This document shows positions 51,359 to 64,000 of a stretch of 64,000 nucleotides of DNA, piece by piece. Position 1 is the first letter of the stretch. Each line of letters starts with the position of its first letter. The DNA lies in contig OY282383.1 in assembly GCA_958295855.1 (NCBI GenBank), forward strand, positions 5,394,329 through 5,458,328. Reading direction: 5' to 3'. The notes beneath the pieces were generated by a model. That model saw only the letters and a program-made list of their open reading frames with translations, searched no databases and was not told the origin of the DNA. Made by a program: the position numbers and the translations under genes. The DNA is from an uncultured Poribacteria bacterium (GTDB lineage Bacteria > Poribacteria > WGA-4E > WGA-3G).

Positions 51359-52963
51359 ATGAGTCTACCAGATCGCCCGAACATTCTTTGGATCTCTTTA
51401 GAGGACACGACGCCGCGTTTCGGTTGCTACGGGGATACGCTCGCGCGTACGCCCAATATCGACCGGCTTGCTGCTGGCGGATGTCGGTTTCCGAACGCGT
51501 TTTCGACAGCAGGAGTCTGTGCACCGAGCCGCTCCGCAATCATTACGGGTATGTACCAGACCTCCATCGGAACGCATCACATGCGGACAACGCATACGAA
51601 CCAGAACACGCCGGAGATGCCAACACCGTATTCCGCTGTGCCGCCGCCCTATGTCAAAACGTTCACTGAATACCTGAGAGGGGCGGGTTATTATTGCACC
51701 AATAACAGCAAGACCGATTATCAGTTTACACCTCCCATTACGGCATGGGATGACTGTAGCAACAATGGACACTGGCGGAACCGAGAACCGGGGCAACCCT
51801 TCTTTTCGGTCTTCAACCCGACCGTTACGCACGAAAGTGGCATGTGGGAACGAGATGAGCGTCCGTTAACTACGAATCCTGATGACGTGCAATTACCGCC
51901 CTATCTGCCGGATACGCCGAAAGCACGGCAGGCAGTGGCGCGCCAGTACGATAATCTCGCTACTGCTGATGCAAGAGTAGGTGAATTGTTGCATCAGCTG
52001 GAAGAAGATGGGCTTGCGGAGAATACGATTGTGTTTCTCTGGAGCGACCACGGTGAAGGGCTTCCACGCGGAAAACGGTGGCCCTACGATGCCGGTATCC
52101 GGATTCCACTGATCGTCCGATCGCCGGGCACGCTGGCACCTGGCGGCCTTAGCGAGCAACTGGTGAGTCTGATCGATCTGGGACCGACGGTGCTCTCGCT
52201 CTGCGGTGTGCAGGCACCTGCACATCTGCAAGGGCAGCCCTTCATCGGGCCGCAAGCGGTGGCACGTGACTATATCTTCGCCACGCGCGACCGGTACGAT
52301 GAATCTTACGATATGGTGCGTGCTGTGCGTGATAAGCGGTATAAATACATCAAAAATTATTACCCTGAAAAGCCGTACCTGCTTTGGATTCCCTACCGCA
52401 ACCGGCATCCGGTGATGCAGGAGATGTGGCGCCTGCATGCCGCTGGGGAATTAGAAGGGGATGAAGCAGTTATGTTCCGCTATCCTCGGCCTGCCGAAGA
52501 GCTCTACGATGTTGAAAACGACCGGTATGAACTTAACAACTTGGCATCGGATGCCGCGCATCATGATGTCTTGGAACGGATGCGCGGTGCGCTGGCGCAG
52601 TGGCAATCCGAATTCGGGGATATGGGGCATCTATCCGAAGAGCAGATGGTAGCGGGGTGGTACCCTGATGGCACACAACCCCAAACAGCGGCTCCCGTTT
52701 TTATTCCGATTAACGCAGAAAACCCGGGCATGGCGGTAGCCATTGAGGATGGGCAGTGGGAAGCTCCGTTGCTTTTGCAACTTCATTGCTCTACGCAAGG
52801 CGCATCTATCGCCTATACGACAGAGCAGCAGGAAGAGGCACGCTGGCGGTTGTATACGGAACCTTTACGTTTGCCGAAAGGTGAAACCACCGTGCGCGCC
52901 AAAGCGATCCGTATCGGTTACCGAGAGAGCGATGAGAACATAATGCGGCTTAGTGTCAGGTAG
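51359..52963 (+). CDS. Sulfatase 3 with C-terminal chitobiase-like domain
   Basis: A 534-residue sulfatase: NILWISLEDTTPRFGCYGD carries the metal Asp residues, TAGVCAPSRSAIITGMYQ the formylglycine motif, and FLWSDHGEGLPRGKRWPYDAGIRIPLIV the second metal and Lys region. After about residue 455 a separate beta-rich segment (LHCSTQGASIAYTTEQQ, YTEPLRLPKGETTVRAKA) matches the chitobiase/beta-hexosaminidase C-terminal type. GGGAGG is 5-6 nt before the ATG. No signal peptide is evident. Substrate is unknown; heparan-type or other glycan sulfates are possible. Confidence 0.9.
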   Translation: MSLPDRPNILWISLEDTTPRFGCYGDTLARTPNIDRLAAGGCRFPNAFSTAGVCAPSRSAIITGMYQTSIGTHHMRTTHTNQNTPEMPTPYSAVPPPYVKTFTEYLRGAGYYCTNNSKTDYQFTPPITAWDDCSNNGHWRNREPGQPFFSVFNPTVTHESGMWERDERPLTTNPDDVQLPPYLPDTPKARQAVARQYDNLATADARVGELLHQLEEDGLAENTIVFLWSDHGEGLPRGKRWPYDAGIRIPLIVRSPGTLAPGGLSEQLVSLIDLGPTVLSLCGVQAPAHLQGQPFIGPQAVARDYIFATRDRYDESYDMVRAVRDKRYKYIKNYYPEKPYLLWIPYRNRHPVMQEMWRLHAAGELEGDEAVMFRYPRPAEELYDVENDRYELNNLASDAAHHDVLERMRGALAQWQSEFGDMGHLSEEQMVAGWYPDGTQPQTAAPVFIPINAENPGMAVAIEDGQWEAPLLLQLHCSTQGASIAYTTEQQEEARWRLYTEPLRLPKGETTVRAKAIRIGYRESDENIMRLSVR

Positions 52964-53060: not shown

Positions 53061-53133
53061 CAGTATAGTTTCCTGGGATCCATAAACGTTGAGCTGTCGG
53101 CACTTCGTCGAGAAATATGAGGAGGAATTTGAT

Positions 53134-53454
53134 GTGAAAGTCTGTCATCAGCAGTTGGACATGCCTATAGTAGCGGTAGATGAACCTCTCAAGCCGCATC
53201 GTTCGGAGTGCGTAGGTCGGCCTGCGGGGCTGCCGCCTGTCAAACTAACAGCCCTGTTAGCTGAAGAACCTGATAACGCCAGGCAAGGTGAAACCGCTAA
53301 TCCTGAGAATCTCAAGCCGCATCGTTCGGAGTGCGTGGGGCGGCCTGCGGGGCTGCCGCCTGTCAAACTAACAGCCCTGTTAGCTGAAGAACCTGATAAC
53401 GCCGATTCTGGGGAAATAGATACCGGACCTGCAGTAGGCAATGAAGTGTGGTAA
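53134..53454 (+). CDS. MazE-like antitoxin with internal duplication
   Basis: The 106-residue product starts at GTG with AGGAGGA 7 nt upstream. Only its last residues are familiar: SGEIDTGPAVGNEVW matches the C-terminal toxin-binding peptide of MazE antitoxins, and it overlaps the MazF gene by seven bases as expected. The AbrB-type DNA-binding fold usual at the N-terminus is not recognisable. Instead residues 19-49 and 60-90 are two copies of a segment ending KLTALLAEEPDNA. The antitoxin is therefore rearranged; whether it still neutralises the toxin is unclear. Confidence 0.65.
   Translation: MKVCHQQLDMPIVAVDEPLKPHRSECVGRPAGLPPVKLTALLAEEPDNARQGETANPENLKPHRSECVGRPAGLPPVKLTALLAEEPDNADSGEIDTGPAVGNEVW
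53188..53403 (+). repeat. 93-bp direct repeat within the antitoxin gene
   Basis: Copies at 53188-53280 and 53311-53403 differ at two positions and are separated by 30 bases, so the period is 123 bp and the reading frame is kept. Both carry GCGGGGCTGCCGCCTGTC, which resembles a dispersed GC-rich element more than antitoxin coding sequence. Confidence 0.9.
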
Positions 53455-53810
53455 CATCAACCCAGTACGACGCAAGCTACATCCCAGTACGCGGTGATGT
53501 AATAGATGTTAATTTCGACCCGCAAGCGGGGAAAGAAATCTGGGATTGGCGGCCTGCCCTTGTTCTCTCTTCGTGGGATTTCAACCGATCGAAAAACGTA
53601 GCAGTTATCTGTCCAATTACTCGCACTAGGAGAAGGAGCCGCCTGGAGATCGAGATTCCGAGCGGCTTAGAGGTGCAAGGATTTATTCGCGCAGATCAGG
53701 TTAAAAGTTTGGATTGGCGAGCCAGAAGAGCTGTCTTTTGTTGTGCAATGCCTAACGAAACGGTGGTTGCAGTCTCCAACACGGTTCAAGCGATTATATG
53801 GGGGAATTAG
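53448..53810 (+). CDS. MazF/PemK-family endoribonuclease toxin
   Basis: This 120-residue protein has the MazF fold motifs: VRGDVIDVNFDPQAGKEIWDWRPALVLS at the N-terminus, NVAVICPITRTRR, and GFIRADQVKSLDWRARRAVF. MazF cuts mRNA at short sequence motifs and slows growth when not bound by MazE. The start is a GTG overlapping the end of the upstream antitoxin, a usual arrangement for coupled synthesis. Catalytic Arg in WRPALVLS and Thr/Ser in CPIT are present, so the toxin looks intact. Confidence 0.88.
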   Translation: MVTSTQYDASYIPVRGDVIDVNFDPQAGKEIWDWRPALVLSSWDFNRSKNVAVICPITRTRRRSRLEIEIPSGLEVQGFIRADQVKSLDWRARRAVFCCAMPNETVVAVSNTVQAIIWGN

Positions 53811-56002: not shown

Positions 56003-57391
56003 ATGAAAGCGATTCGTTTTTTCACTTTTTTTATAGGATGCCTGATGCTATTCGCAACGCCGGTGCTGGAGGCTTTGGTGCAGCGAACCGTAGAGATAAA
56101 AAATCACAACACACGTGAGGCTCGCGTTGCATACTGCTTTGTAATAAAAGCGGAAGATGCCTCCGATGAGTACCCGGGCTTTCACGTCCGTGGGTGGGAG
56201 TCTGTTCCGCCTGGGCATTCTCATAAAATTAAGATTGGGGTTTCTACCCCCCAACTCTGGGTTCGGGTAGAATTTGTGGGTGGTGGGCGTCTGTCTTTTG
56301 GTAAAAAGGAAGCATCTTACTCTGTGCATCCTACAGAGAAATTTAAACTTGTTCACGCCTTTGGTTCTGGTGCTGTGCTTTACAGTTCTGTCGCTGAGGG
56401 GGCCTTGATACGGAAGAAGTTTGACACATTCTCGCTAAAGGATGGTAACCTGACTTTGCGTCTCCCAGGGCCGTTAGAGATAAAAGAAGACACCCGCCCT
56501 CTTCCGCCGGAGGAGCCACAATCTTCTTCTGCGCGGGATTTTGATGCGGTTTACAGCACGGATGGGTTTGTCCGAGAGGGTAAGGATTACGCGCTGTTGT
56601 TCGCAACGAATGAATATGAGCATTGGCCCAATCTTGGAACACCTATAAACGATGCGCGCGCCCTTAAGGCGGAGTTGGAAGCCTATGGGTTTGAGACAGA
56701 GTTGGTAGAGAACGTGCAGTCGCGGGTGGATTTTCTAACCAAGATTCATGAATACGCGGCGAAGCCGTGGGGCAGCGGCGATCAACTGTTAGTCTATATT
56801 GCCGGACATGGAGAGTTTAAGAATGTGGGTCAGCGGGGCTTCATTGCAGCGTCCAATTCGCAATTGCCCAAGAATGATGAACCGTTTGCAAGTTACGTCT
56901 CTTATTCGGATCTCCGGGACGAACTGGATGGAATGGATTGTCAACGCGTCCTATTGATGCTGGATGTCTGCCAGGGTGGCACGTTTGATAAGAAAATCGC
57001 CTTGGCCCCTGACGCATCTAGCCTACGTACAAGGGGACAAAGCAGAGGAGTCAAGCCGAAATTGGATCTGAATGACACATTGAAGGTGAAGACCCGGTGG
57101 TACCTGACTTCCGGTGGGAAGGAGGATGTCCAAGACGGTAAGGAACATTCTCCCTTTGCCGCTGCGCTGCTCACTCTCTTCAGAGACGGTGCGGGTAATG
57201 ATGGTGTTCTGACCATGCCGGAGATTGAACGGCAGCTGCCCGCAACATTTCAAAATGAATTGGACAAGGTAGAGGAGGCTTATAGAGAAGAGAACCCGTT
57301 TTGGGAAGGCGAGCTGAAGCAAAATCCTACCTCCGGTGCGTTCAATGAGCAGGCATCTGATAAGGCGTTTGTGTTCATACGTAAAGAGTAG
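56003..57391 (+). CDS. Exported caspase-like protease with DUF1036-like N-domain
   Basis: The 462-residue protein has a signal peptide (residues 1-25), then a beta domain (RTVEIKNHNTREARVAYCF, YPGFHVRGWESVPPGHSHKI) resembling DUF1036, and from about residue 195 a caspase/C14 domain: DYALLFATNEYEHWPNLGTPINDARAL, catalytic His269 in YIAGHGEF and Cys323 in LMLDVCQGGTF. Both catalytic residues are intact. SHSPFAAALL-type substrate-site sequence (EHSPFAAALLTLF) follows. Caspase-like proteases in bacteria act in regulated proteolysis or cell death; export makes a periplasmic substrate likely. It heads a cluster with a lipoprotein and DUF4384-like genes. Confidence 0.85.
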   Translation: MKAIRFFTFFIGCLMLFATPVLEALVQRTVEIKNHNTREARVAYCFVIKAEDASDEYPGFHVRGWESVPPGHSHKIKIGVSTPQLWVRVEFVGGGRLSFGKKEASYSVHPTEKFKLVHAFGSGAVLYSSVAEGALIRKKFDTFSLKDGNLTLRLPGPLEIKEDTRPLPPEEPQSSSARDFDAVYSTDGFVREGKDYALLFATNEYEHWPNLGTPINDARALKAELEAYGFETELVENVQSRVDFLTKIHEYAAKPWGSGDQLLVYIAGHGEFKNVGQRGFIAASNSQLPKNDEPFASYVSYSDLRDELDGMDCQRVLLMLDVCQGGTFDKKIALAPDASSLRTRGQSRGVKPKLDLNDTLKVKTRWYLTSGGKEDVQDGKEHSPFAAALLTLFRDGAGNDGVLTMPEIERQLPATFQNELDKVEEAYREENPFWEGELKQNPTSGAFNEQASDKAFVFIRKE

Positions 57392-57442
57392 GTTCGAGGC
57401 GTGAAAACGGCTCGGTTTAAATATATTTTTATGGAGGTAAAG

Positions 57443-58012
57443 ATGTTTAAGAAAAATGCTGTTTTTTTTCTATTGATTTATGGCGTGATGCCAATTTTCC
57501 TGGCGTGCTCTGCCAAGGAGTGCCCCCCGCCCCCAGTTCCATTTACGCCGGAAGGCTCTTGGGAAGTTGTCTCAATTGATAACAAAAGTGTGGAGAACTA
57601 CTTCGCCCTATTTGGTGGGGATTTCTCAGATATAGAGACCACGGTCGCCCAGAATGATTTTGTTTTTTTTCCGAACGGTTCGTCGTGGTATTGGACGCTT
57701 GTGCTTGACATAAAGGCGGACATGGGGGGTGGTCTCGCTTTGCTACCAAAAGTGGAGTTGGCAGGAGAAGGCGAATATACATATTCAGATACAACGAGAA
57801 CGATGGTTATCGTTCAAAACGATTTGAGTGTCCAGTTAGAACCTGAAGATTTCTGGATGTCTGCTGGCGTCTCGAAAGAGGCCTTCAAAAGCGAGGTTAC
57901 CCGGACGTGGCTCTTCGGAAAAGTAGAGAATTGGAGAGTGCAGCGCTCGGGAAGAACGCTCATCCTGACGAACTCTAGCGGAATAAAGCAGGTTCTAAGG
58001 CAAAAATTTTAG
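57443..58012 (+). CDS. Lipoprotein of unknown function
   Basis: This 189-residue protein starts MFKKNAVFFLLIYGVMPIF and has the lipobox LAC (GGAGGTAAAG sits just before the ATG at 57443). After a proline-rich linker (CPPPPVPFTPEGSWEVVSID) comes a beta-rich domain like small lipocalin/META-type proteins (VFFPNGSSWYWTLVLD, LAGEGEYTYSDTTRTMVI, LFGKVENWRVQRSGRTLIL). No enzymatic motif. It is 51 bases after the caspase-like gene, in the same direction, and is likely part of its operon. Confidence 0.72.
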   Translation: MFKKNAVFFLLIYGVMPIFLACSAKECPPPPVPFTPEGSWEVVSIDNKSVENYFALFGGDFSDIETTVAQNDFVFFPNGSSWYWTLVLDIKADMGGGLALLPKVELAGEGEYTYSDTTRTMVIVQNDLSVQLEPEDFWMSAGVSKEAFKSEVTRTWLFGKVENWRVQRSGRTLILTNSSGIKQVLRQKF

Positions 58013-58259
58013 GTTTCATTTGACATCCACTGGACTGGGGGCCGCGGTCAGTCGCATAGCGTTGACTGACCCGCCTCGGCTTAACGGGGGCTCCCCCATA
58101 CATGCGTTGCAGAATTCTCTTCATCACTCTTTTTTTTAGTGTGCTGAAGGTGCTGCGGTGTGAAACAGAAACACCGCCGGGCGGTAAGGCGCTAGCTGCC
58201 CTCTGCAGAACTTAGCGTTAATTGAATTCAATCAACCTATAAAAGGGAGATTTAAACTC
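58013..58259. other. Intergenic region before the DUF4384-like pair
   Basis: Holds GTCAGTCGCATAGCGTTGACTGAC, an imperfect hairpin at 58048-58071, GGGGGCTCCCCC at 58086-58097, and a T-run at 58130-58137. Together they may terminate transcription of the lipoprotein gene. No gene is seen. Confidence 0.4.
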
Positions 58260-59906
58260 ATGCGTAAATTTTTTGTTTGCTTCTTGCTCCTGGGGCTATT
58301 GGTAACAATCCCTTGGTTAACAAAGGCACAACAACGACTCCCGCGTTATGTGACTGCTAATTACCCAACATCGGACTACATGTCTATAGCTGTGGATCCC
58401 AGTAAAGGCTCCGGGGTTGATGCGTTAGTGGAAGAGGCCAAGAAGGAACTCATCCAACGGATGTTCCAGAATACCAATTCCATTTTTAATCCTCGCGAAA
58501 AGAAGGGGAAAAACAGATGGGCATCGAGGGAGCAACAGCAGAAATTAGAAGAAGATTACATTGAAGCCCGCTATAACCTAAAGCAGATGGCGACGGCTCC
58601 TAACTCACATCTCGCGAAGCTTTTGCACCGCACGAATGTGAGTTCAGGGGAGAAATCGTACACGCTTGTTAATGTCAAGCGCCAAGAGTTGATGCGGGCT
58701 TATGTTGAACGGGAGAAAGCGTTGGAGGAACAAATCAACGTGCTCGTTGCAAGGGCTGCGCAAGTCGAGGCTGTCAACCAGCAGCAGGCGTTGCAAGCAT
58801 ATCTGCAGACACTTCCTCTGTACGAGGAGTTGAAAGAGGCGGCACTTCTTCAACAAGTGGCAATGTCGCCGTCGGGGCAGACTCAGGATGCCGAGGCTGT
58901 ATTCCGTAAATTGCAGGAGGTAGCCACCGGGACTAACGGCGGTTCGCTGAGCATGCCCCTTCCAGATGTAAATGAACGCGTTAATCAACTTCAGCACAAA
59001 GGGAGGTTAATGCAGACTGTCGACGAAATGGCTGTTTCCATGGTACAGCAACTTTCCACGCAGACGAAGGGACTCCAGAAAGGCCTGATTAAGATAAATG
59101 GGTTTAAATATAAATCTACATCCATGGCTCAAGGCAGGGCCATGGCCTTCGAAAAGGAGTTAGCGCGGCTGCTTGAGCAGGATGGGTGGAGAGTTCATAG
59201 TCCTGATCCGCCGACGCGTGGGATGCAGCGTAAGAAGGCGTCGTTTACCATTGCAGGCACAGTCGTGGAAGGTGAAGAGGGTTCTGGGAGATTCAAGGCG
59301 GTGATATCCGATTCTACATCTGGTGACATCGTGGGAACAAGTCACTTGAATCTCGATAGGGGTGTTCTCTACAGACTTCAACCGTCGAATTATGATGGGG
59401 CAGTAGAGGTTCGAGAGGCTTTTGATTCTAACGTTCGGCAAACCCGCGTGCGGAGAGATGTCTTAACAGGTCAAGAGTTAAAAGTTGAGGTTTGGACAAA
59501 CAAGGATCAGGAGTATTCCGTTTTCCCTGATGGTGAAGATGTAATAATCTATTGTCAGGTGAATCAACCCGCCTATATCCGATTAGTCTATGTCCTCGCT
59601 GAGGACAATAACAATCTTGGCCGTCACACGCTCCTTCACGACAGCACCTATATTGATAAAGCAAAGGTTGGATTGCCGGTAGCGATTGGCGAATTTGTGG
59701 TTGCCCCACCCTTTGGTGCCGAGCAGTTAATTGTTTTGGCCCGAAAGGACCCGCATCCACAGGTTGATACTGTCCTGAGGGATGGGTATTATTATCTGAG
59801 TGCGCGGAATGCAAAAGAGGCTATGGCTGCGATGAACCCGCCGACCCGCGGTCTGAAACAACCAGCAAGTTCCACCATAATTGAGTTTAGTACTGCGGCG
59901 CGATAA
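58260..59906 (+). CDS. Exported DUF4384-like protein, copy 1
   Basis: The 548-residue protein has a signal peptide (MRKFFVCFLLLGLLVTIPWLTKAQ). Residues about 50-300 are helical (KGSGVDALVEEAKKEL, AYVEREKALEEQINVLVARAAQVEAV), then a beta sandwich, and the C-terminal 140 residues match the DUF4384 pattern: LKVEVWTNKDQEYSVFPDGEDVIIYCQVNQPAYIRLVYVL, then LLHDSTYI and PPFGAEQLIVLARKDP. DUF4384 domains are frequently joined to caspase or peptidase domains in other bacteria; here it is a neighbour. AGGGAGATTTAAACTC precedes the ATG. Function unknown. Confidence 0.75.
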   Translation: MRKFFVCFLLLGLLVTIPWLTKAQQRLPRYVTANYPTSDYMSIAVDPSKGSGVDALVEEAKKELIQRMFQNTNSIFNPREKKGKNRWASREQQQKLEEDYIEARYNLKQMATAPNSHLAKLLHRTNVSSGEKSYTLVNVKRQELMRAYVEREKALEEQINVLVARAAQVEAVNQQQALQAYLQTLPLYEELKEAALLQQVAMSPSGQTQDAEAVFRKLQEVATGTNGGSLSMPLPDVNERVNQLQHKGRLMQTVDEMAVSMVQQLSTQTKGLQKGLIKINGFKYKSTSMAQGRAMAFEKELARLLEQDGWRVHSPDPPTRGMQRKKASFTIAGTVVEGEEGSGRFKAVISDSTSGDIVGTSHLNLDRGVLYRLQPSNYDGAVEVREAFDSNVRQTRVRRDVLTGQELKVEVWTNKDQEYSVFPDGEDVIIYCQVNQPAYIRLVYVLAEDNNNLGRHTLLHDSTYIDKAKVGLPVAIGEFVVAPPFGAEQLIVLARKDPHPQVDTVLRDGYYYLSARNAKEAMAAMNPPTRGLKQPASSTIIEFSTAAR

Positions 59907-60012
59907 GCGTGTTATGGTATTTGCTTTTCATTGTAGTTGTCATTGCCCGCACTGCTTGGTTTCCCATCGAGCAGTGCGGCTTACCATTCAGATAAAAGTG
60001 AGATCTAAACTC

Positions 60013-61641
60013 ATGCGTAAATTTTTTGTTTGTTTCTTGCTCCTGGGGCTGTTGGTAACAATCGCTTGGTTAATAAAGGCACAACTACCGGGTTATGTGA
60101 CTGCTGATTACCCATTGTCTATAACTGCGGAACCCAGTCAAGCGTCCGGGGTTGAGGCGGCAGTGGAACGTGCCACGCAGGAACTTGCCAAAAGGTTCTA
60201 CCAGAATGCCAAGTCCCTTTTTAATCCTCGCGAAAAGAAGGGGAAAAACAGATTTGTCCCGTCGGAGCAACAGCAGAAATTAGAAGAAGAGTACATTGAA
60301 GCCCTCTATAACATAGAGCAGATGGAGGAGGCTCCTAACTCACATCTCGTGAAGCATTTTCACCGCACGAATGTGGATTCAGGGGAGCAACCGCACACGC
60401 TTGTTAATGTCAAGCAGCAAGAGTTGATGCGGGCTTATGTTGAACGGGAGAAAGCGTTGGAGGAACAAATCAACGCGCTCGTTGCAAGGGCTGCGCAAGT
60501 TGAGGCTGTCAACCAGCAGCAGGCATTGCAAGCATATCTGCAGACACTTCCTCTGTACGAGCAGTTGAAAGAAGCGGTGCTTCTTCAACAAGTGGCAGCA
60601 ATATCGTCGCCAGGGCAGGCTCAGGATGCCGAGGCTGTATTCCGTAAATTGCAGGAGGTAGCCACCGGGACTAACGGCGGTTCGCTGAGCATGCCCCTTC
60701 CAGATGTGCATGAACGTGTTAATCAACTTCAGAACCAAGGGAAATTAATGAACACTGTCGACGAAATGGCTGTTTCCATGGTACAGCAACTTTCCATACA
60801 GACGAAGGGAATCCAGAAAGGCCTGATTAAGATAGATGGGTTTAAATATAAATCCACATCCATGGATCGCGCCAGTGCCTTCGAAACGGCGTTACGGGAG
60901 AAGCTTGAGCAGGATGGGTGGAAAGTTTATGTGCCTGATCCGACGACGCTTGGGCTAAAGCGTAAGGAGGTGTCGTTTACCATTACAGGCACAGTCTTGG
61001 AAGGTGAAGAGGATTCTGGGATATTCAATGCGGTGATATCCGATTCTGAATCTGGTGCCATCGTGGGAAATAGTCACTTGAATCTCAGTCCTGACCTTGT
61101 CTCCCAACTTAAACCGGCGAATTATGGTGATGCGGTAAAGGTTCGAGAGGCTTTTGATTCTAACGTTCGGCAAACCAGCGTGCGGAAAGACATCGTAACC
61201 GGTCAGGAGTTAGACGTTAAGGTTTGGACAAACAAGGATTCGGCGAATTCCGTTTACCGTGATGGTGAAGATGTAATAATCTATTGTCAGGTGAATCAAC
61301 CCGCCTATATCCGATTAGTCTATGTCCTCGCGGATGGCGCGTACACGCTCCTTCATGACAGCACCCATATTGATGAAGCAAAGGTTGGATTGTCGGTAGC
61401 GATTGGCAAATTTGTGGTTGCCCCACCCTTTGGCGCCGAGCAGCTAATTGTTTTGGCCCGAAAGAACCCGCATCCACAGGTTGATACTGACCTGAGGGAT
61501 GGGTATTATTATCTGACGGCTAGGGATGCACAAGAGGCTATGGAGGCGATAAACCCGCAGCCGACAACCCGCGGGCTGCAACAACCAGCAAGTTCCACCC
61601 TTATTCCGTTTATTACTCAGCCAGATACACTTTACGATTGA
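60013..61641 (+). CDS. Exported DUF4384-like protein, copy 2
   Basis: A 542-residue tandem paralog of the previous gene with the same signal peptide (MRKFFVCFLLLGLLVTIAWLIKAQ), helical middle and C-terminal DUF4384-like domain (VWTNKDSANSVYRDGEDVIIYCQVNQPAYIRLVYVLADG). The DNA between the two copies (GCGTGTTATGGTATTTGCTT...) is repeated again after copy 2, so the duplication unit includes the spacer. I start it at 60013, aligning with copy 1; the longer frame to 59881 overlaps copy 1 and reads through the spacer. Confidence 0.77.
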   Translation: MRKFFVCFLLLGLLVTIAWLIKAQLPGYVTADYPLSITAEPSQASGVEAAVERATQELAKRFYQNAKSLFNPREKKGKNRFVPSEQQQKLEEEYIEALYNIEQMEEAPNSHLVKHFHRTNVDSGEQPHTLVNVKQQELMRAYVEREKALEEQINALVARAAQVEAVNQQQALQAYLQTLPLYEQLKEAVLLQQVAAISSPGQAQDAEAVFRKLQEVATGTNGGSLSMPLPDVHERVNQLQNQGKLMNTVDEMAVSMVQQLSIQTKGIQKGLIKIDGFKYKSTSMDRASAFETALREKLEQDGWKVYVPDPTTLGLKRKEVSFTITGTVLEGEEDSGIFNAVISDSESGAIVGNSHLNLSPDLVSQLKPANYGDAVKVREAFDSNVRQTSVRKDIVTGQELDVKVWTNKDSANSVYRDGEDVIIYCQVNQPAYIRLVYVLADGAYTLLHDSTHIDEAKVGLSVAIGKFVVAPPFGAEQLIVLARKNPHPQVDTDLRDGYYYLTARDAQEAMEAINPQPTTRGLQQPASSTLIPFITQPDTLYD

Positions 61642-61647
61642 TTAAGC

Positions 61648-62640
61648 GTGTTATGGTATTTGCTTTTCATTGTAGTTGTCATTGCCCGCACTGCTTGGTT
61701 TTCAGCAGTGCGGCTTACCATCCAGATAACGGTTGGCGCGAGGCCAACTGTCAAGGAGTCATCTCATGAATCATCTCATGAATCATCTCTCCGCCAGTTT
61801 CACCCGGGTGCTACCGTAGATTTGTCTGGAAAGCGGGGTGCCTTTGCCTGTTTACGCGCGCGCTCGCCGCAACACGCCGAAATCCTTTTCCGATTTCATG
61901 CAGATTTCAATCTGGCGGCAATGTCTGAAGGCGCATGGGTGGCAGACGAGTTTGAAAGCCTAAATGAGAAACTTCGGGAAGACATAAAGGGCCTGACGGA
62001 GGAGCTTGAGGATTTTGAGGAGCTTGAAGGCTTGTCGGAGGAGATTGAACCTCTAAAGAAGCACCTGTCAGAACACCTAAGGGGTAAGAAGGAGTTGGCA
62101 GGCCTATACGAGAAAATAGCAGCGTTGGATTTGAAGCTTGATGCGCAGTTCAGGGCACTAGAACAGGCGTTTGATAAGCGGTTCGGGACACTAGGGGACA
62201 CCCTAGCCTCACAATTAGATGAGACCTTAGCTTCACGAGAGAAACATCTCACCATGCGGTTGAATGCATTAAGCGGGCAAGTGACACAGTTAACTGCTGT
62301 CTACCTTACACCAACGTACTTTACCGGGCGTTTGCTGATAAATCGCGAGTCAGGTCAGGTGCAAGCGTTTTCGCTCGCGATTCCCGAACACGACGGAAAT
62401 GTCACACTTTCTACCTTCGGCCGCGTCGATACGGTTTTTGTGCCTCGGATGAAACTTATTTCCGAAAGCACGGATGAACAGACAGGTATTTCATGGGCGA
62501 CTGCCCTCGCGTCTGAAGAGGCCCACCTGGCATTGCACGCCGCCGCCCGTGGCGAAAAGCCGCCGCGTAGGTACTTCACGCCACTCATAAAGTCGCCGAT
62601 CAGAGAGCCGCTGATCATAGAGCCGCCGCTGACGAGATAA
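61648..62640 (+). CDS. Coiled-coil protein, start uncertain
   Basis: The frame codes up to 330 residues. The first 25 (LWYLLFIVVVIARTAWFSAVRL) are read from the repeated spacer sequence and may not be translated, or may form an accidental membrane anchor. The rest has a short N-terminal domain (ATVDLSGKRGAFACLRARSP), a charged coiled coil (DEFESLNEKLREDIKGLTEELEDFEELEGLSEEIEPL, then KLDAQFRALEQAFDKRFGTLGDTLA) and a beta C-domain (YFTGRLLINRESGQVQAFSLAI). It is unknown to me. It ends with a good terminator at 62648-62677, closing the operon. Confidence 0.6.
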   Translation: MLWYLLFIVVVIARTAWFSAVRLTIQITVGARPTVKESSHESSHESSLRQFHPGATVDLSGKRGAFACLRARSPQHAEILFRFHADFNLAAMSEGAWVADEFESLNEKLREDIKGLTEELEDFEELEGLSEEIEPLKKHLSEHLRGKKELAGLYEKIAALDLKLDAQFRALEQAFDKRFGTLGDTLASQLDETLASREKHLTMRLNALSGQVTQLTAVYLTPTYFTGRLLINRESGQVQAFSLAIPEHDGNVTLSTFGRVDTVFVPRMKLISESTDEQTGISWATALASEEAHLALHAAARGEKPPRRYFTPLIKSPIREPLIIEPPLTR

Positions 62641-62647
62641 AACTAAA

Positions 62648-62677
62648 ACAGGCGGGTTAGAATCCCGCCTGTCTCTT
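62648..62677 (+). terminator. Intrinsic terminator closing the caspase/DUF4384 cluster
   Basis: ACAGGCGGG (62648-62656), 7-nt loop, CCCGCCTGT (62664-62672), then CTCTTTTC. Confidence 0.8.
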
Positions 62678-62843
62678 TTCGTATTAGGAGGGCACCGTAC
62701 TGCAGCCCAATTGTTCCTAGCGTTGCTGTCTGTGCTGTTCTTGGAGCCGGTCCCACGGGTAGATAAAACAACGGTTAGCCCAGTCTTGGTAAAGCCCGAG
62801 AAGTTTCCACCCCTAAACATGGGAAACCTACAGGCTATGCAAC

Positions 62844-64000
62844 TCACGGCGCGATGAACAGAAAATCGCTCCCTGGTTCATTGCTACCGAATTCTCCATA
62901 GTATGGTGAAGGCTTAACCTTCTCAATGTAGCCCTTAATCTCATTGAATGTTAGAATGCCGTCTGCACCTCCGTATTCTCGCAAGGCTTGAATTATCTGG
63001 CGCGCAAACGGAGAGTGTTGTCCAGGTCTGCCGTCGGAGACGTACTCCTTACCCCCTGATGTTAGGTACAACCGTCCTTTTAAATCCAATTTTTTTCTGA
63101 TGAACTCTGCCCTGGAGTGCCCTTTGTATACCCCATCACTTCCACCGCGTTGGGCGATTCGCTCATCAAACGTCCCACTGAAGCAGGTGTCTAGTACCAG
63201 CAAGAGGTGTTTACACGGAATGCTTTCAAGGAGGGTGCTAAGCCGCGTGTGAGGGATATAACTGAGCCGCGCGAGATCACTACTAGGTAACTTTGAATCA
63301 AGGGCCACAATGTGGCCTTCTTTGTGCACCTCATCAAAATCCCCATGTGCAGCGAAAAAGAGCATCAATTGATCGTCAGGGTTGTACTGCTTCTCCGTGT
63401 ACTCGCGTAGTTTCGCGAAAATTTGCTCTTGTGTTGGGTTTTCGACGAGCTCAACTTGAAAATCGTAGGTGTTCTTCAATATCTCGCTGATGGTTTTCGC
63501 GTCGTGAATTGGATTCTGGAGAGGAGACCAGTGGTTATAGGCGTCGGTGGCGAACAACAACGCGTAATCCTGCCCCTGCCTCCCAAGAGTGCGAGTGACA
63601 GAAATGATAAGCGGTTCGGAAGTTTGCCCATCCGTATCAAAGGCAATAATCTCAATTAAGTTGCCCCCGTAGGTGAGCGGGACAGTTACGTCAATTGTGA
63701 ACCGTCGATCTGGGCGCACGCCACGCTTTTTTGCGGTTTTGACCAGTTCTTTGTTGCGCGACAGCTCAATTTTATCAATGCCTTTGTCATCGTTCGCAAA
63801 AGCGATGAATTGAAGTGTTTCCGAGGAAACCTCAGTCTGAAACTTACCCTCTTTGAGCTCGGGTTTAACCAAAATCAATGTTGGAGGGCTCTGGACGGTG
63901 TCAGGTGAATCGCGTTTTGTTTGAGGTTCCGATGTTGGAGGTCTCTGGACGGTGTCAGGTGAATCGCGTTTTGTTTGAGGTTCCGATTGGATGCCAGTCG
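62844..64000 (-). CDS. Caspase-like protease, 5' end beyond window
   Basis: At least 385 codons; the frame continues past the right edge without a start, so the tracker-style TTG at 63878 is not credible. Order: a proline-rich linker of two 18-residue repeats (SEPQTKRDSPDTVQ(R/S)PPT), an Ig-like strand domain (RFTIDVTVPLTYGGNLIEII), then a caspase/C14 domain with LLFATDAYNHWSPLQNPIHDAKTI, catalytic His in FFAAHGDF and Cys in LVLDTCFSGTF, and HSPFARQIIQAL. Catalytic dyad intact. It faces the other caspase gene across the cluster (convergent), and shares its domain with 56003-57391 but not the N-terminal part. Confidence 0.85.
   Translation of the reverse strand, partial: TGIQSEPQTKRDSPDTVQRPPTSEPQTKRDSPDTVQSPPTLILVKPELKEGKFQTEVSSETLQFIAFANDDKGIDKIELSRNKELVKTAKKRGVRPDRRFTIDVTVPLTYGGNLIEIIAFDTDGQTSEPLIISVTRTLGRQGQDYALLFATDAYNHWSPLQNPIHDAKTISEILKNTYDFQVELVENPTQEQIFAKLREYTEKQYNPDDQLMLFFAAHGDFDEVHKEGHIVALDSKLPSSDLARLSYIPHTRLSTLLESIPCKHLLLVLDTCFSGTFDERIAQRGGSDGVYKGHSRAEFIRKKLDLKGRLYLTSGGKEYVSDGRPGQHSPFARQIIQALREYGGADGILTFNEIKGYIEKVKPSPYYGEFGSNEPGSDFLFIAP
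63880..63987 (-). repeat. 54-bp tandem repeat in the caspase linker
   Basis: Two units (63880-63933 and 63934-63987) differing at one position, coding 18 residues each. The first bases of a flanking non-repeat begin at 63988, so there are only two full copies in the window. Confidence 0.85.

Follow-up and report, generated by a model that had tools for sequence, protein, structure and literature searches.

Which protein would a caspase-like protease act upon in the envelope of a bacterium, and can the sequences of the protease and its neighbours point to an answer? This question is raised by a gene cluster in a 64,000-nucleotide stretch of DNA, hereafter the window (G000:C1:5394329-5458328), which is part of a 5.5-Mb genome from the Poribacteria, a group of sponge symbionts. 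Five genes on the forward strand, between positions 56003 and 62640, encode a caspase-like protease of the C14 family, a lipoprotein, two DUF4384 proteins (partners A and B) and a coiled-coil protein (Table 1). To our knowledge, hardly any substrates have been established for the caspase homologues of prokaryotes, with the bacterial gasdermins (bGSDM) providing the main cognate pair. The present analysis has revealed that the linkage between caspase and partner is conserved in Poribacteria and that a short motif, [R/K]-[G/A]-[FLMIV]-[K/Q/R], newly recognised here, is common to the partner and its cognate caspases. In three loci this motif changes jointly in the two proteins, which suggests that the partner may be a substrate of the protease.

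Conservation of the Caspase-Partner Unit

Loci of the LPP20-DUF4384 partner gene were collected in Poribacteria and annotated with profiles built from the families of the cluster, most of the related genomes being metagenome-assembled genomes with contig breaks. A caspase gene lies within 5 kb of the full-length partner in 26 of the 28 resolvable poribacterial loci; the two without one are G042:C484 and L102, and five more lie too close to a contig end. A reading of the window made from its letters, without database searches (the sequence-only reading), had proposed a periplasmic protease with dedicated partners or substrates, an idea which this linkage in relatives sustains. The cluster is thus a true conserved unit with respect to its caspase and partner. 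At least 27 of 85 genomes carry the partner and all 27 also carry a caspase (detected with Pfam in 25 of them and through a sequence search in two), a gene present in 58 of the 85 overall, with a hypergeometric p value for co-occurrence of 2.4e-6, uncorrected for relatedness. Five genomes with a partner at an unlinked locus were tested, and all of them carry a caspase elsewhere. The divergence of the caspase follows that of the partner (Mantel r 0.72, p 2e-4, 19 pairs), a correlation which is partly due to common descent.

The linkage spans approximately 23 genomes and several caspase architectures, comprising WD40 + immunoglobulin (Ig) + C14 proteins, C14 + PEGA + FGE-sulfatase proteins, CARDB types and the type found in the window. 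The gene order caspase, lipoprotein, partner and coiled coil recurs in G032, which has one partner copy and a locus spread over two contigs, and in G072, where the caspase is present twice and the partner once. The same four genes occur rearranged in G025, and the G012 and G033 loci have no coiled-coil gene. Strong orthologues of the lipoprotein (>230 bits) are restricted to these five genomes and that of the window (G000), in each case at this locus. As a side observation, secreted C14 + FGE-sulfatase proteins (with PEGA in the one that was scanned), often in tandem, adjoin the LPP20-DUF4384 gene of further Poribacteria at L048, L051, L057, L059, L126, L127 and L132. The full-length partner type is confined almost entirely to Poribacteria, with one occurrence in 80 genomes of the phylum of the Aminicenantes locus; in Larkinella, a caspase has been detected two genes from the partner. 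A caspase-partner link beyond Poribacteria was considered and is not supported, the partner being rare there. No description of a gene set like this one was found in the open-access papers that were searched.

The Caspase-Like Protease

The window caspase contains a Peptidase_C14 domain (Pfam, E 6e-15; score 56 bits, cut-off 21.4), preceded by an N-terminal domain of about 150 residues with no assigned family. DUF1036, which the sequence-only reading had named among the profiles to search with, gave no Pfam match here at E up to 10, and three orthologues were likewise without one when matches up to E 1 were admitted. The same reading was right in describing the catalytic dyad as intact: His269 and Cys323 are both present and align with those of homologues. 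None of 12 aligned relatives departs from His269, and Cys323 is missing solely from the second caspase copy of G072, in whose orthologous operon this Cys-less caspase lies beside one with its catalytic residues intact; the Cys-less copy is possibly a regulatory pseudo-caspase. Asp217 and Asp321 are also invariant and are the equivalents, by comparison with published motifs, of the acidic S1 pocket residues of metacaspases (PMC6426788). Because both are invariant, Arg or Lys is expected at P1, and the protein is accordingly predicted to be of the Arg/Lys-specific C14 type. When its AlphaFold2 model was searched with Foldseek, the top matches among solved structures were to MALT1 (E 4.5e-10).

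The DUF4384 Partner Proteins

Both tandem proteins have a DUF4384 match (PF14326) above the 27-bit Pfam cut-off, in partner A with E 4.6e-7 and 30.3 bits and in partner B with E 6.8e-9 and 36.1 bits, as had been supposed for their C-termini. The sequence-only reading had also regarded them as DUF4384 domains split from a caspase. They are indeed separate proteins that look exported, but they hold more than this domain: DUF4384 constitutes only the C-terminal part of a homology that extends over the full length of some 550 residues, at 25-30% identity, in other Poribacteria. Foldseek searches with the AlphaFold2 model of the partner (mean pLDDT, the predicted local distance difference test, of 80) returned TolB (E 1e-4), HP1454 (probability 0.98), the LpoB C-terminal domain (probability 1.0) and GNA1162 (probability 0.99). 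An LPP20 match (PF02169) was obtained with Pfam in three of 14 partner homologues, with a best E of 8e-4, partner A itself being without one, and a lipobox is visible by eye in several homologues. From its model, the partner is read as an LPP20-like + LpoB/TolB-N/CsgG-like + DUF4384 beta-sandwich protein, with export judged by eye. A sequence search of solved structures with the partner yielded chance matches only, and no gasdermin was matched in it with Pfam or PADLOC. The two partner genes arose as a tandem duplication whose units share 85.5% DNA identity, the proteins being 77% identical; the start of partner B is placed at 60013 instead of the mechanical TTG at 59881.

A Motif Common to Protease and Partner

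When counted in the form RG[FLMIV][QKR] and compared with shuffled sequences, the motif occurs in 26 of 38 partners, against 2.4 expected, and in 20 of 36 linked caspases, against 3.5 expected. It was found in none of eight unlinked caspases, and other neighbouring genes show no enrichment (14 of 295, with 17.3 expected). The motif is also nearly absent from the fused C14-DUF4384 proteins present in more distant poribacterial relatives, 12 of which gave one RG and one RA match only.

Partner A carries the motif twice, at sites termed m1 and m2. The model places m1 in a loop (residues 317-322, pLDDT <50) inside the LpoB/TolB-N/CsgG-like domain, and m2 in a loop between a helix and the C-terminal beta strand (537-546). 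Partner B has lost the Arg of m1 (TLGLK, Leu313 at 60949) and kept m2 (TTR↓GLQQP, Arg520 at 61570; the arrow marks the predicted cut). Among 19 aligned homologues, m2 takes the form [RK]-G-hydrophobic in 17, two of these slightly shifted, within linkers around both sites that are otherwise variable. On the side of the protease, the position of the motif depends on the architecture. Window-type caspases have it in a low-confidence segment of the p20/p10 linker (SRGVK), and in some FGE types it follows closely on the signal peptide. In WD40 types it belongs to the A-B loop of the final Ig domain, where its distance from the A strand is exactly 11 residues in 10 of the 11 close caspases of this type.

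In the three window-type loci, the P1-P1' pair of the caspase linker recurs unchanged at both m1 and m2. It is R-G in G000 (SRGV, TRGM and TRGL, respectively), R-A in G032 (TRAL at all three sites) and K-G in G072 (IKGI, TKGM and VKGM). The R-G and R-A states were spotted first; the G072 partner was checked later, and its K-G proved to match the pair that the caspase linker had already shown. A close match also occurs in G012, with RGFQRP in the linker of the caspase and RGFQRI in the partner.

Proposed Mechanism and Alternative Explanations

These observations can be understood if the cluster encodes an envelope paracaspase-like protease with a dedicated partner or substrate, where the protease processes itself and cuts the partner at the common motif, thereby switching it; the case for this proposal is judged to be evenly balanced. 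The protease, which appears by eye to be exported, would be located in the envelope and, on some trigger, would process itself at [R/K]↓[G/A]-hydrophobic-[K/Q/R], a site that lies in the p20/p10 linker in the window subfamily. It would then cut the neighbouring LPP20/CsgG-like/DUF4384 protein at m2, directly ahead of the C-terminal beta strand, with a second cut in some lineages at m1, inside the LpoB/TolB-N/CsgG-like domain. Loss of the last 18 or so residues, or a nick in the middle domain, would switch the partner between two envelope states, and the lipoprotein and coiled coil would be accessory, perhaps as anchor or scaffold. Such a switch might serve in envelope stress, in interaction with the host or in regulated lysis. 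A bolder form of this proposal, tentative and somewhat short of an even prospect, is an envelope paracaspase cascade, in which the protease activates both itself and the partner at a co-evolving Arg/Lys-Gly/Ala motif, forming a non-cytoplasmic switch with no relation to gasdermins.

Several observations weigh against the predicted cleavage of the partner by its caspase. The m1 site is [RK]-G-hydrophobic in only seven of the 19 homologues and Arg-Asp-Phe in four, and several FGE-type caspases are without the motif. The motif counts are not independent because the motif sequences are homologous, and the co-varying set comprises three loci only, for which an exact match is expected by permutation at about 1/6 per comparison. 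A further site, m0 (QTKGLQ), was tried as a co-varying site and rejected, as it keeps its basic residue without the R-A or K-G change. The model of the caspase is weak overall (mean pLDDT 62), with a good p20 core and a weak remainder, and in the second caspase copy of G072 (L095:2207-3823, on G072:C10) the catalytic Cys is replaced by Asp (DVDYGG). Moreover, two partners whose caspase is unlinked (L102 and L104) keep m2, so that linkage and motif are not cleanly separable and the motif does not cleanly single out linked caspases.

A docking or assembly signal would also fit these data on linkage and motif: caspase and partner would attach, by way of the RG-hydrophobic loop, to one another or to a common third component in an envelope complex, and the caspase would cut something else. 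The conserved position of m2, and the motif in the L102 and L104 partners that have no adjacent caspase, are in keeping with such a signal. It is nevertheless considered rather unlikely, given that the motif sits in disordered linkers, including the interdomain linker of the caspase itself, that it matches the R↓G-aliphatic specificity of MALT1, and that R/K swaps preserve basic charge alone, as would be the case for a P1 residue. The partner could instead regulate the caspase as a sensor or inhibitor, cut only as a by-product or as a competing pseudosubstrate, with the real target elsewhere in the envelope or extracellular. The partner does adjoin the protease in WD40-type loci, the additional Cys-less caspase of G072 resembles regulatory pseudo-proteases, and the window partner is duplicated, with one copy devoid of the m1 Arg; however, m2 has been kept as a cuttable [RK]-G and not as a dead site, and no other target was seen, which makes a regulatory role improbable. 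Simple co-location, meaning an ordinary orthocaspase locus beside conserved secreted genes, with the RG motifs as structural features of loops, draws on the many secreted paralogous families of poribacterial genomes, where the end domains of the coiled-coil protein reach 29 copies per genome. This is held to be very improbable in view of the number of genomes and the variety of caspase architectures (WD40, FGE, CARDB and window type) over which the linkage extends, the occurrence of strong lipoprotein orthologues at this locus only, and the distribution of the motif, which fused C14-DUF4384 proteins nearly lack and unlinked caspases lack altogether.

Comparison with Known Systems

A parallel to the proposed protease is offered by MALT1, which requires Arg at P1, is nearly restricted to Gly at P1' (Ser being tolerated and Ala little), prefers an aliphatic P2' and cleaves the Arg-Gly bond of its natural substrates (PMC6207715). 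Among solved structures, MALT1 is the one whose fold comes nearest to the caspase model, and the cluster motif fits its Arg↓Gly-aliphatic preference. Its protease is accompanied by Ig-like domains (PMC4357240), as in the poribacterial WD40-Ig caspases. Nonetheless, MALT1 is a cytosolic animal immune protein with 13% identity, whereas the window caspase is bacterial and, as judged by eye, exported.

In the Runella bGSDM, the cut occurs at Leu247↓Gly, within a loop close to the C-terminal end, and Gly is required at P1' (PMC9079055). A caspase-like gene adjoins one dedicated partner in both systems, and the predicted poribacterial cut also has Gly at P1' and would free a short C-terminal segment. 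The poribacterial partner is not a gasdermin, however, the predicted P1 residue is Arg or Lys, and both poribacterial proteins look exported, unlike the cytoplasmic bGSDM. Despite the similar C-terminal release that is predicted, pore formation by the partner is not implied by the data.

DUF4384 has been reported fused to orthocaspases in cyanobacteria and Alphaproteobacteria (PMC7475262; PMC8283722; PMC6426788). The two domain families are the same as in the window, where DUF4384 instead belongs to a separate protein that looks exported, has LPP20 and LpoB/TolB-N/CsgG-like parts and carries the RG motif that fused forms nearly lack. Envelope proteins such as LPP20, HP1454, LpoB and TolB resemble the partner model in fold, but none of the papers found describes such a protein joined to DUF4384 and encoded next to a caspase. 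Caspases also occur within two- or multi-gene sets in the EACC1-caspase and VMAP/MoxR-vWA conflict systems, although the window cluster has no EACC1, MoxR, vWA or EAD parts; DUF4384 is not mentioned in a survey of conflict systems (PMC7159879). MaOC1, which requires self-processing for activity, is the sole biochemically characterised orthocaspase named in PMC5756287.

Features and Surroundings of the Locus

The caspases, lipoprotein, DUF4384 pair, coiled coil and terminator listed by the sequence-only reading are all present at the same positions (Table 1).

Table 1. Positions in the window of the cluster genes, candidate cleavage sites and adjoining features (the arrow marks the predicted cut)
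Feature	Position	Strand	Details
Caspase-like (C14) protease, exported as judged by eye	56003-57391	+	462 residues; Pfam, Foldseek, hydrophobic N-terminus by eye
Catalytic His269	56807-56809	+	Invariant across homologues
Catalytic Cys323	56969-56971	+	Nearly invariant across homologues
p20/p10 linker	56990-57061	+	pLDDT <50 at residues 330-353
Putative self-cleavage site QSR↓GVKPK, in p20/p10 linker	57044-57046 (Arg348)	+
Lipoprotein-like open reading frame	57401-58012	+	Likely start ATG 57443; weakly lipocalin-like
Tandem duplication	~58239-61726		Unit 1 58239-59991, unit 2 59992-61726; ~1.74 kb each
Partner A	58260-59906	+	548 residues; read as signal peptide + LPP20-like + LpoB/TolB-N/CsgG-like + DUF4384
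Motif m1 in partner A, DPPTR↓GMQRK	59205-59234	+	Arg320 at 59217-59219
Motif m2 in partner A, NPPTR↓GLKQP	59835-59864	+	Arg530 at 59847-59849
Partner B, tandem paralogue of A	60013-61641	+	542 residues
Coiled-coil protein	61648-62640	+
Terminator-like hairpin, bidirectional	62645-62675		Between convergent genes
Facing caspase, C-terminal part	62844-64000	-	Gene runs on to genome C1:5459913

Cys36 of the lipoprotein is invariant in six homologues, and a Lipocalin_4 match (E 0.043) was obtained in a single homologue. The coiled-coil gene is about 95 N-terminal residues shorter than its orthologues, with its first codons within the sequence common to the duplicated unit. Its end domains, for which Pfam found no family in the window member, belong to a poribacterial family of proteins of about 280 residues, with up to 29 matches per genome; relatives of these domains at L143 and L144 (G039/G036) adjoin genes that look by eye like ABC-2-type permeases.

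The facing caspase (Peptidase_C14, E 8e-22) belongs to a lipoprotein-like CARDB + C14 protein of 913 residues and is, together with the window caspase, one of only two C14 matches in the G000 genome. Its grouping with the cluster in the sequence-only reading has been abandoned, as it is absent from the orthologous position in G032 and G072 and specific to G000. Within its gene, a 54-nt tandem repeat (63878-63985) encodes the peptide SEPQTKRDSPDTVQ twice, in a linker between the CARDB and Ig parts.

No RNA family was found in the region, and PADLOC detected no known defence system at the locus, giving only a weak generic 'caspase' match and coiled-coil noise. Sulfatase genes flank the locus on both sides (51359-52963 and genome C1 ~5460787-5462463), and the downstream one, with the genes after it, is conserved beside the locus in G032 and G072. 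A PemK/MazF-like toxin gene (53448-53810, E 1.6e-19) lies within 53089-53810, overlapped from upstream by an open reading frame with a repeated peptide of about 30 residues and no Pfam match, which could be an antitoxin.

Implications

If the proposed cleavage is correct, the cluster would represent a second kind of pairing between a caspase and its partner, one that has a named cut site and is located in the envelope of a sponge symbiont not yet cultured, and an Arg↓Gly specificity similar to that of MALT1 would exist in bacteria. It would also offer a general route to the substrates of proteases, through short motifs that change jointly in the protease's own linker and in a neighbouring protein.

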